Part shown: positions 53,375 through 56,976 of the stretch, in pieces
Position numbering within the stretch: position 1 is the stretch's first letter
Layout of the letters: every line of letters begins with the position of its first letter
Assembly: GCF_001956985.1 (NCBI RefSeq)
Contig: NZ_CP019082.1
Coordinates: forward strand, 6,696,001 to 6,760,000
DNA length: 64,000 nucleotides
Source: Paludisphaera borealis
GTDB lineage: Bacteria > Planctomycetota > Planctomycetia > Isosphaerales > Isosphaeraceae
Reading direction: 5' to 3'
The notes under the pieces: model-generated
Databases searched by the model: none
What the model was told of the DNA's origin: nothing
Seen by the model: the letters and a program-made list of their open reading frames with translations, nothing else
Made by a program: the position numbers and the translations under genes

Positions 53375-53559
53375 TTCGCTGGTCCGAAGTCCGTCACAAC
53401 GGCGTTTCGTGGGCTTCACCCACTCGCCTCGGCTGTCCGCGAGATTGGGTTCGTTTGTCGCTTTTATGCGTCCCTTTCGCTGGTCCGAAGTCCGTCACGA
53501 CGGCGTTTCGTGGTCTTCACCACTCGCCTCGGCTGTCCGCGAGATTTGGGTTCGTTTGC
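53375..53559. repeat. Two direct copies of an about 84-bp unit, period 101 bp
   Basis: Copies start at 53375 and 53476, both with TTCGCTGGTCCGAAGTCC, and run through CACTCGCCTCGGCTGTCCGC to a closing GGGTTCGTTTG. They differ by a few substitutions and single-base indels. A related GGGTTCGTTCG tail also occurs at 53264. This looks like a dispersed non-coding repeat family. Confidence 0.8.
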
Positions 53560-53590: not shown

Positions 53591-53669
53591 ATACAAGCTC
53601 GAAGCGCCAGCGAGTGGATGCTTCCAATGGCCCAACGGAGATTCACTCGCTGGCGCTTCGAGCTTGTAT
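53591..53669. repeat. REP-like inverted repeat, 26-bp perfect arms
   Basis: The left arm 53591-53616 begins ATACAAGCTCGAAGCGCC and ends AGCGAGTG; the right arm 53644-53669 is its exact reverse complement. A 27-base spacer separates them. In translation the arms give SSKRQRV and LALRAC-type peptides, which recur in many planctomycete hypothetical proteins (recalled, not searched). No open transposase lies beside it, so it would be a non-autonomous element. Confidence 0.8.
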
Positions 53670-54044: not shown

Positions 54045-55562
54045 ATGAGGGTCGCCCTGCTGGGGTGGGATCTGGAGGACGAGACCGTCGCCGAACTGGG
54101 CGGGCTCGGGGTCGAGGTCGTCGGCTTCACGCGATGGTTCCCGGACCTGCCGGCCCGCGAGGCGCATCACGGCTGGCTGGAAGTGCGCTGTCCTCATAAC
54201 ATCGGCGGCAGTCCGCGCGACGAGGCCCTGGCGTTCGGCGTGGCGGTGGTTCGCGAGGCGAGCACGTCGGGGCTCGGCTTCGACTTCGACGTGGTCCACG
54301 CCCTCGACTGGCGGACCCGCCCTGCGGCCGGCGAGCTGTCCGCCCGCGCCCCAGGCTCGATCGTCGTCGCCTCGCACGCCGCCGGCGACGACGACCTCGC
54401 GGAGCATATCGGGTTCGGTCCCCGCGAAACGCCCGACGCCTGGATCTGCGACCACCCGTGGGGAGCCGAGAGGCTGCATGCGCGCATCACCGGCGAACCC
54501 CTCGTCTTCACCGTCCCGACCGCCCACGCCCTCGCGACCCAGAAGACGCCGGCCCCCGAGGCCGACGCCGAGCCGCTTGCGACAGGTCCGTGCCTCGTGC
54601 TCTCGCTGGGCTCCGGAACGCGGGTTTCGTCGCGGACGTTGATCCGGGCTGTGCGAGCCGCCCGCGAGCGCGTGCCGGGGCTGGTCGTCGCGCTGTTTGA
54701 CGCTGCGGGACGTTACGGCCGGCTCAAGCGGTGGCTGGACCGATCGGGCCTCGCCTCCACGCGATGGGGAGGGATGGCGCTGCCGACTCCCGACCTCTGG
54801 AACGCCGCCGTGGCCCAGGCGGCGGTGGTTGGCGTGGCGTCGCGCAATCCCGTCGACGACCCGACGGCCCACGCGGCTTGGCTGGCCGGTGTTCCCGTCG
54901 TCGGGCTGCTCACCGACGACTCCGACGCCCTCGCGCTCGCCCTGGCCGACGCCGTTTTCTGCCCCGAACGCCGCGACCACGACGTCCGGGCGTGCGCCGC
55001 GCTGGCCGGTCGGAGGCTCTCCCCGGAGTCGGTCGCCGCGGACCGTCTCCGCGCCTACCTCATGCTTCTCGACCGCAAACGAACCGCGCCGTCGCCCGAG
55101 CCGACCGGCCGTCCGACATCGGCCGATGAATCCGACGCCCCCCGGACGCTGGCGTTTCCCGACCTGCGGTCGCGGCTGACTTTGACTCCGGTTTCGAGCC
55201 GCGAGGTGCTGGCGTCGTGGTCGGTGCGCCCGGACGACTGGCGGTCGGCGCTTCAGTGGATGGGCCCCGAAGCGGTGCGAGCGGTGTTGACGATCCGCCT
55301 GTTCGACGTGACCGACGTGGCGTACGACGGCATGAATGCCCACAGCGTCTTCGACGTCGACCTGTCGCTCAGCGAGAACCATCGCGTGATCGCCGCGCCC
55401 TATGAGGGTCGGTCGCTGGCGGCCTGTCTGGGGGCGCGGTCGCAGTGGGGCTACTTCCATCCGCTGGCCCACGCCCGGATCTGCCACCTGCCGCGCGAGG
55501 GGCTGGCGCCGGTGTCGGACGGGAGGCGGCTGCGGATCATGCCTCGTCGCACCTGGACCTGA
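54045..55562 (+). CDS. Glycosyltransferase-like protein fused to a DUF4912 domain
   Basis: A protein of 505 residues. The first 340 residues resemble a GT-B glycosyltransferase: MRVALLGWDLEDETVAELGG, DFDVVHALDWRTRPAAGEL (the D-V-H-x-H-x-W type motif), and a second Rossmann-like half with SLGSGTRVSSRTLIRAVRAA and WLAGVPVVGLLTDDSDALA. The usual C-terminal EGFGL motif is not clear, so activity is uncertain. Residues about 380-490 match DUF4912 (EVLASWSVRPDDWRSAL, LTIRLFDVTDV, YDGMNAHSVFDVDL, GYFHPLAHARICHLPREG), often found with glycogen-type enzymes. ATG 54045 has GGAG upstream. It is 49 bases before the GH57-like gene and probably co-transcribed. Confidence 0.75.
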   Translation: MRVALLGWDLEDETVAELGGLGVEVVGFTRWFPDLPAREAHHGWLEVRCPHNIGGSPRDEALAFGVAVVREASTSGLGFDFDVVHALDWRTRPAAGELSARAPGSIVVASHAAGDDDLAEHIGFGPRETPDAWICDHPWGAERLHARITGEPLVFTVPTAHALATQKTPAPEADAEPLATGPCLVLSLGSGTRVSSRTLIRAVRAARERVPGLVVALFDAAGRYGRLKRWLDRSGLASTRWGGMALPTPDLWNAAVAQAAVVGVASRNPVDDPTAHAAWLAGVPVVGLLTDDSDALALALADAVFCPERRDHDVRACAALAGRRLSPESVAADRLRAYLMLLDRKRTAPSPEPTGRPTSADESDAPRTLAFPDLRSRLTLTPVSSREVLASWSVRPDDWRSALQWMGPEAVRAVLTIRLFDVTDVAYDGMNAHSVFDVDLSLSENHRVIAAPYEGRSLAACLGARSQWGYFHPLAHARICHLPREGLAPVSDGRRLRIMPRRTWT

Positions 55563-55611: not shown

Positions 55612-56976
55612 ATGCCCTGTCTGGCCCTCGTCCTCGAACTCCACCACCCGCTGCCCGACTCCGGCGCGGCCGTCGGCGCCGACTGGGCGCGGGCCTCGAT
55701 CGAGACCTACTGGCCGATTCTCCGGGCGCTCCATCGGTTCGCCGAAAATCCCGGCGGGTCGTCGTTGACGCTCGCCGTGAGTCCGAGCTGGATGGCCCTG
55801 GCGGCCGATCCGACGGCCCAGGCGCGGGTGCGGGTCGAACTCGATGCCCGGGCAAAGCTCGATACGGTTGATCCGTCTCTGCACCGGTTCATCGCGACGA
55901 CCTGCGAGGGGGACGCGCTGCGGTCGCTCCGCCGCTGGAACGCCGCCGGCGCGATCGACGTGATCCCGACGTCGGCCAGCCACACGTGGCTGCCGAGCGT
56001 CGCCCAGGACCCGATAATCGCACGGGCTCAAATCGGCCTGGCCGCCGCCGACTGCGCCCAACGGCTCGAAGCGCGGCCGACGGGCGTCTGGCTGCCGTTC
56101 CTCGGCTACGCGCCGGGGCTGGAAACGGCGATGGCCGCCAGCGGCTTGCGGTTCTTCGGCGTCGCGGCCGACGTCTTCGTGCGGGGCACCGTTCTGCCGC
56201 CGGGACGAACCTCCGGCCCGCTCGTCACGCCGCCGGGCGTCGCGGCTTTCGGGGTCGAGCCAGGTCCAACGTCGCAGGCTTTCGACCCTCAGACCGGCTA
56301 CGGCCGCGATCCCCGTTACGTCGATCCGGCCAAGGCGGTGCGGGCGGCGTTCGAGCATTCGAAACACTTCGTCGACGCCTGGCGCGACCAGGCGTTCTCC
56401 GCCCCCACGGGCGAGGACGCGCCGATCGAGCCGATCCGCGTGGTCGCGTTCTCGGCCCACGACCTCGCCCAGGGCTGGCAGTCTGGAGGGGCGGGGGAGT
56501 GGCTTTCGCAGGTTCTGGAGCGGCTGAAGTCCGTCGAGGGCGCCTCCGCGTCGTCACTCGATCGCTACCTGGCGCGAAACCCGGTCGGGCCGTTCGGCCG
56601 TCCCGGGGTCAGCCCTGGAGGAATGCTCGCCGCCCGGCCCGCCGATTCGGACCTGTTCGACCGCTGCCGGACCGCCGCCGACCTCTTGACCTTCATCCTC
56701 GAACAGCGCCGGACGTTCCGCTCCCTGGAGCGGCGGACGACCGCCTGGATGATCCGCTGCCTGCTGCGGGCGCAGCAAGTCGACTGGTCGCTGCCGTTCG
56801 GCCGCGGCGTCGGACCCGACGTCGGTCTGGAGCGTGCGCGACGGCACCTCGCGATGTTCCACGAGCTGGCCGGCGGCCTCATGGCCGGCAGGCCCGACGC
56901 GCGCCGGCTCGACCGGCTCGACCGTGGACCGTCCTATCTGCCGGAGATCGACCTCGCCATTCCAGCCGGCGACTGA
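55612..56976 (+). CDS. GH57 branching-enzyme-like protein lacking catalytic residues
   Basis: A protein of 454 residues. The family framework is kept: LVLELHHPLPD at the start (for LVLHAHLPY), DVIPTSASHTWLPSV, GVWLPFLGYAPGLETAM, FGVEPGPTSQAFDPQTGYGRDPRYVD and FSAHDLAQGWQSGGAGEWL. In active GH57 branching enzymes the nucleophile is the Glu of WLPEC-Y and the acid is the Asp of FD-ELFGHWW. Here these positions are Phe163 and Ser281. The protein therefore looks like a non-catalytic relative, perhaps a glycan-binding partner of the adjacent glycosyltransferase-DUF4912 protein. This is inference from motif alignment by eye. Confidence 0.8.
   Translation: MPCLALVLELHHPLPDSGAAVGADWARASIETYWPILRALHRFAENPGGSSLTLAVSPSWMALAADPTAQARVRVELDARAKLDTVDPSLHRFIATTCEGDALRSLRRWNAAGAIDVIPTSASHTWLPSVAQDPIIARAQIGLAAADCAQRLEARPTGVWLPFLGYAPGLETAMAASGLRFFGVAADVFVRGTVLPPGRTSGPLVTPPGVAAFGVEPGPTSQAFDPQTGYGRDPRYVDPAKAVRAAFEHSKHFVDAWRDQAFSAPTGEDAPIEPIRVVAFSAHDLAQGWQSGGAGEWLSQVLERLKSVEGASASSLDRYLARNPVGPFGRPGVSPGGMLAARPADSDLFDRCRTAADLLTFILEQRRTFRSLERRTTAWMIRCLLRAQQVDWSLPFGRGVGPDVGLERARRHLAMFHELAGGLMAGRPDARRLDRLDRGPSYLPEIDLAIPAGD

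Follow-up and report, generated by a model that had tools for sequence, protein, structure and literature searches.

The window analysed here is the whole stretch of 64,000 nucleotides from Paludisphaera borealis (NCBI RefSeq assembly GCF_001956985.1, contig NZ_CP019082.1, positions 6,696,001 to 6,760,000). It carries an open reading frame (ORF) for a homologue of the GH57 branching enzymes from which both catalytic residues have been lost, here called the pseudo branching enzyme. Directly upstream, with 49 bases between, lies a partner gene in which a degenerate glycosyltransferase-like region is fused to a DUF4912 domain. The features of the pseudo branching enzyme are the following.

55612-56976, strand +: pseudo-GH57 branching-enzyme homologue, 454 amino acids (ORF translation, Pfam, sequence and profile searches of the PDB, hhalign)
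56098-56100, strand +: codon of Phe163, at the position of the catalytic nucleophile Glu (alignments)
56452-56454, strand +: codon of Ser281, at the position of the catalytic acid Asp (alignments)
56692-56958, strand +: BE_C domain (PF09210), residues 361-449 (Pfam, above cut-off)

A first-pass annotation, made from the sequence of the window, had given the ORF and its motifs correctly; WLPFLGY occupies residues 160-166 and FSAHD residues 280-284. In Pfam the protein scored 28.6 bits for BE_C, against a cut-off of 25, and 18.3 bits for GH57, short of the cut-off of 21.2. Each of the two families was matched by nine of the ten orthologues described below at E 0.1, and at this threshold no enzyme family besides them was matched. 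A search of NCBIfam at E 0.01 matched no enzyme family beyond two GH57 branching-enzyme models, with scores far under cut-off (61.7 bits against 920 and 41.9 bits against 1000). The closest solved structure is T. maritima AmyC (PDB 2b5d), found by a single-sequence phmmer search at E 4.5e-22 and by a profile of the ten orthologues at E 2.6e-43; in the profile search it was followed by 3n8t, 5wu7, 1ufa and 3p0b. Three recA fusions also appeared there (E 5e-5 to 7.5e-4, residues 99-150) and were taken as chance matches. When the ten orthologues were aligned by hhalign with 12 canonical planctomycete enzymes, the probability was 100 and E was 2.2e-46 over 447 columns. At the level of sequence, this alignment and the BE_C match indicate collinearity with the (beta/alpha)7-barrel and the BE_C helical domain, and the homology to GH57 branching enzymes is greater than chance would give.

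The annotation had proposed that the nucleophile and the acid are missing, a claim that would fall if Glu171 or Asp284 took the catalytic positions. In the hhalign pairing F163 corresponds to the nucleophile Glu and S281 to the acid Asp. D284 fell opposite a Leu and E171 opposite an Asp that has no catalytic function. Neither takes over a catalytic position, and phmmer, MAFFT and hhalign agree on this. Both catalytic residues are present in all 40 canonical planctomycete relatives examined, and the pair is gone from all ten Isosphaeraceae orthologues. The nucleophile column, in conserved sequence region (CSR) 3, holds F in eight orthologues, S in one and H in one, against Glu in 40 of 40 canonical enzymes; the acid column, in CSR-4, holds S in eight, P in one and A in one, against Asp in 40 of 40. 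By these counts every one of the ten has lost both residues, but the replacements are not fixed, Phe163 and Ser281 each being shared by eight. The polarizing His of CSR-1, equivalent to AmyC H10 and present in 39 of 40 canonical enzymes, is E in nine orthologues and L in one. The claim that the surrounding fold motifs are kept was true only in part. CSR-2 and CSR-3 are recognisable; CSR-1 is partly so, with its His10 equivalent replaced; and CSR-4 and CSR-5 are strongly degraded and largely dismantled.

Partner gene, selection and distribution

The features of the partner gene are the following.

54045-55562, strand +: partner gene, 505 amino acids, in which a degenerate GT4-like (GT-B) region is joined to DUF4912 (Pfam, hhalign, adjacency)
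54276-55094, strand +: GT4-like region, residues 78-350 (hhalign, Foldseek)
55170-55508, strand +: DUF4912 domain (PF16258), residues 376-488 (Pfam)

The neighbour had been described as a glycosyltransferase-DUF4912 gene. The DUF4912 part of this description stands, with a Pfam score of 50.7 bits against a cut-off of 29.4 and the domain present in all ten partner orthologues. The glycosyltransferase part, however, is cryptic. The score for Glyco_transf_4 was 13.2 bits against a cut-off of 28.5, the glycosyltransferase-family matches of the orthologues were weak (best E 0.0013, in one member), and the 38 PF00534 matches in its genome at E 0.001 do not include the partner. Residues 78-350 aligned with a profile built from 15 of this genome's GT4 proteins, with an hhalign probability of 97 and E 9e-12. 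These 15 proteins were the ones with E-x7-E among 30 fetched loci; the motif, which belongs to the C-terminal Rossmann domain of GT4 enzymes, is therefore present in the profile by selection. Pro269 and Ala277 of the partner align to its two glutamates. The first Glu is missing in all ten partner proteins and the second in nine, that of genome G024 retaining it. Single-sequence and profile searches of the PDB with the partner gave no credible match. The best Foldseek matches of the partner model were PimA and BshA, which would lend weak support to a GT-B fold on a weak model in which only residues from about 180 to 313 reach a pLDDT around 50-84.

The gap before the partner gene contains two adjoining direct-repeat blocks at 53375-53549 (46 nt at 96% and 30 nt at 97% identity), each recurring about 100 bases on. 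In the same gap, at 53591-53669, there is a 29-nt inverted repeat, 97% complementary with 21 nt between its arms, which may be a dispersed repeat.

Protein searches found matches to the pseudo branching enzyme in 11 of 45 genomes of the order, namely all six members of the genus searched, two of three of genus g7, G007, G024 and G051; L015 and G003 were counted as one genome. In G051 the match covers 25 residues at the end of a contig; it was excluded, which leaves the ten orthologues. In a class-wide profile search 58 of 397 genomes matched at E 1e-8 or better, and ten of these matches are the full-length Isosphaeraceae proteins. Of the other 48 class genomes, 21 were examined (20 loci and genome G027), and all have the Glu and the Asp. 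Both residues are also present in 19 further canonical loci from a phylum search, which were chosen by hand, not at random, from 134 phylum genomes with a BE_C match out of 392, the window's genome being among the 134; one stretch of the phylum sample, L110, is without a branching enzyme. No intermediate with a single residue lost was found among these 21 class genomes and 19 phylum loci, a sample outside which 27 class genomes and some second copies lie. In a maximum-likelihood tree of 30 sequences the ten orthologues were set apart by a branch with 100/100 support and a long stem; the tree was midpoint-rooted, and an unusual amino-acid make-up was flagged in seven of the ten pseudo branching enzyme rows.

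The available part of PMC5352709 gives GH57 counts of four for P. borealis, four for SH-PL62 and two for I. pallida. Strong PF03065 matches number three plus the pseudo branching enzyme in P. borealis and in G002 (taken as SH-PL62), and two without it in G024 (taken as I. pallida). This suggests, without proof, that the Paludisphaera proteins were already counted as GH57 in published CAZy counts. Elsewhere in the window's genome, at G000:C1:6430348-6435364, two strong GH57 (PF03065) genes are near neighbours, and 6434885-6435364 gives a GT4 (PF00534) match.

The reading frames are intact in the ten genomes at pairwise identities of 34-81%. The omega values (NG86), computed with trimmed ORF starts, ranged from 0.228 to 0.395 for the pseudo branching enzyme (ten pairs, of which five include the gene of the window) and from 0.214 to 0.458 for the partner gene (also ten pairs). 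For comparison, omega was 0.30-0.48 in four pairs of the surA-like neighbour, from a run in which several ORF starts, some of the neighbours' included, were over-extended; topA was not included in the selection test because it extends beyond some loci. The proposal of an intact and conserved pseudo-GH57 gene is thus borne out by purifying selection as well as by the catalytic pair missing throughout.

The pseudo branching enzyme adjoins the partner gene in all ten genomes, in at least three genomic settings. The pair is flanked by surA-like and der genes in the window, in four of the five other genus members and in both g7 genomes. In G004 it lies next to der, and a surA-like match was not found in the stretch available. 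The pairs of G007 and G024 are next to other genes, and in G024 the two ORFs are 1 bp apart. Furthermore, two DUF4912 matches per genome occur in exactly the 11 of 45 order genomes that have a match to the pseudo branching enzyme. DUF4912 matches as such were found in 248 of 297 class genomes searched. At L176:4382-5713, on the minus strand, the second DUF4912 protein of its genome scores 120.2 bits and has a Rho_N match under cut-off.

In three of 20 canonical planctomycete loci (L091, L092 and L095), a GH57 enzyme whose catalytic residues are complete likewise has a DUF4912 gene directly upstream, with a gap of 3 bp in two and of 53 bp in one. On the evidence of these three cases, the DUF4912 pairing appears to predate the loss of catalysis. 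The scan used found the domain in 30 of 30 control loci. The L095 DUF4912 protein (L095:3988-4965, plus strand), beside its canonical GH57 branching enzyme, has a Glucodextran_B match of 20.7 bits against a cut-off of 27 close to its C-terminus, which hints faintly at a connection with alpha-glucans.

Catalytic groove and newly conserved stretches

The active-site residues of AmyC, as listed in the available part of PMC6616209, were mapped onto the orthologues by motif through the enzyme of G027. In the canonical enzymes the active-site columns had a conservation of 0.990 vs. 0.621 elsewhere (p 3e-11). In the pseudo clade the corresponding values were 0.795 and 0.721 (p 0.09, not significant), using the 19 of 21 mapped positions that have a residue in the window protein. 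The top conserved stretches of the pseudo clade are residues 55-66, 4-15, 342-353, 186-197, 326-337 and 203-214. Besides residues 4-15, two further regions count as newly conserved.

56167-56202, strand +: residues 186-197, AD-x3-RGT-x2-PP (alignment, conservation)
56587-56670, strand +: residues 326-353, G-x2-GRPG-x-S-x-GG ... RP-x2-SDL-x-DRCR, replacing the CSR-5 region with W402 and W411 (alignment)

Residues 186-197 overlap the place of the short catalytic loop of AmyC (AmyC 213-220, ungapped phmmer alignment). The stretches 4-15, 186-197 and 326-353 would correspond to the beta-1 strand of the GH57 groove, the catalytic-loop region and the CSR-5 lid. The barrel mouth could have been rebuilt for another reaction by way of newly conserved residues such as E9, H11, H12, D187, R191, D284, D347, D350 and R351. 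The alignment of the three stretches to these places is in keeping with a new active site, as is residue 284, which is acidic in all ten orthologues (Asp in nine, Glu in one). However, the old active-site columns show no significant excess of conservation over the rest of the protein, the Pfam (E 0.1) and NCBIfam (E 0.01) searches matched nothing but GH57 and BE_C among enzyme families, and the partner is likewise a degenerate enzyme. A new active site was considered unlikely.

The first-pass annotation had also suggested a glycan-binding role, in which the protein would bind an alpha-glucan in its original groove and recruit glycogen enzymes. The lineage derives from a glycogen enzyme, and equivalents of AmyC H12, W29 and D463 are present in all ten orthologues and that of W357 in nine. 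However, the equivalents of R237, W246, F261, W356, W402, W411 and S462 are missing from all ten. At the W246 position two orthologues have Phe; in AmyC itself this is a buried residue, according to the available part of PMC6616209. Moreover, the F466 position is aromatic in five orthologues only, and residues 268-312 of the G027 enzyme have no counterpart in at least nine of the ten. With most of its known contacts lost, the old groove is less likely to bind a glycan than the annotation assumed, and such binding is rather improbable overall.

A GH57 enzyme still active through displaced catalytic residues would have some precedent in the GH57 alpha-galactosidase group, whose proton donor, according to the available part of PMC6037648, was not borne out by modelling. 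It is nevertheless very improbable here: Glu171 and Asp284 were rejected as displaced residues by the three alignments, and the polarizing His is replaced too. A decaying pseudogene would account for the missing catalytic residues and for replacements that differ between lineages, but it is scarcely credible and was rejected, being largely refuted by the omega values of the ten pairs and opposed by frames that remain intact at identities down to 34%.

Possible role of the gene pair

The gene pair probably has a non-enzymatic job. The best explanation, to which we lean with modest confidence, is a non-catalytic two-protein module that evolved from a pair of DUF4912 and branching-enzyme genes. 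The ancestor would have been an AmyC-like GH57 glycogen branching enzyme, probably one with a DUF4912 gene already beside it. Within the Isosphaeraceae this enzyme would have lost the catalytic pair, the acid-polarizing His and most known groove residues, while the protein was kept in a non-catalytic capacity. The two proteins may then work together physically, the remodelled barrel and the DUF4912 domain offering binding surfaces, and the module may regulate or organise carbohydrate metabolism rather than make branches. A scaffold or partner role for the pseudo branching enzyme would be plausible. All 22 Isosphaeraceae searched (45 genomes in total), including all ten with the pair, have a GH13 branching enzyme that scores above the TIGR01515 cut-off, so branching need not depend on the pseudo branching enzyme gene.

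Several points weigh against a two-protein module. In 17 of the 20 canonical loci there is no DUF4912 gene within several kb of flank, and the same is true of 20 of 20 class loci within flanks of about 1.5 kb. The adjacency of the two genes does not prove physical interaction. The polar residues E9, H11, H12, D187 and D391, expected at the barrel mouth, are identical in nine or all ten of the orthologues, and their conservation could mean a new active site instead. Furthermore, the AlphaFold models, both built from two-sequence alignments (the window protein and that of L015), were poor, with mean pLDDT of 42.5 for the pseudo branching enzyme and 40.5 for the partner, so pocket geometry is not visible in them.

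A bolder proposal, which can be made only tentatively, is that both members of the pair, once a GH57 branching enzyme and a GT-B glycosyltransferase, gave up catalysis and together with DUF4912 became either a ligand sensor or an enzyme of a new sort. Its site would be formed from residues 4-15, 186-197 and 326-353, where the barrel mouth used to be.

Comparison with known systems

The literature searched contained no functional study of pseudo branching enzymes and no paper that gives DUF4912 a role; the sole mention of DUF4912 there was in a cotton transcriptome listing. The available part of the review PMC11046441 contains nothing on the pseudo branching enzyme group. GH57-derived pseudoenzymes are known from sequence surveys, and in the portions of the literature covered here no role is assigned to them.

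The nearest precedent is the group of 'GBE-like' GH57 proteins reported in 2018 by Martinovicova and Janecek (PMC6037648). In the available part of that survey, which counts 60 of them with a listed length of 520, these are bacterial branching-enzyme relatives without one or both catalytic residues, as is the pseudo branching enzyme; the string 'planctomyc' does not occur in the main text. The kind was therefore already known. Unlike that group as described there, the Isosphaeraceae protein has an altered CSR-1 and strongly degraded CSR-4 and CSR-5, and it represents a more extreme variant.

The AmyC-type GH57 branching enzymes (AmyC 2b5d, TK1436 3n8t and TT1467 1ufa) are collinear with the pseudo branching enzyme over their full length, including the BE_C helical domain. 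It differs from AmyC in that the catalytic Glu and Asp, the polarizing His and most groove residues are gone, in its length (454 vs. 528 amino acids) and in its new conserved stretches. The partner aligns with GT4 glycosyltransferases over residues 78-350, but differs from them by the loss of E-x7-E, a score below cut-off and the fusion to DUF4912. The pairs of L091, L092 and L095 have the same gene order as the window, but their GH57 enzymes retain the Glu and the Asp. Moreover, the L092 and L095 DUF4912 proteins, unlike the partner in the window, have no glycosyltransferase domain in Pfam at E 0.01. Among GH57-derived pseudoenzymes the present case is a tidy one, comprising one group, in several genera of one family, with a single DUF4912 partner gene.
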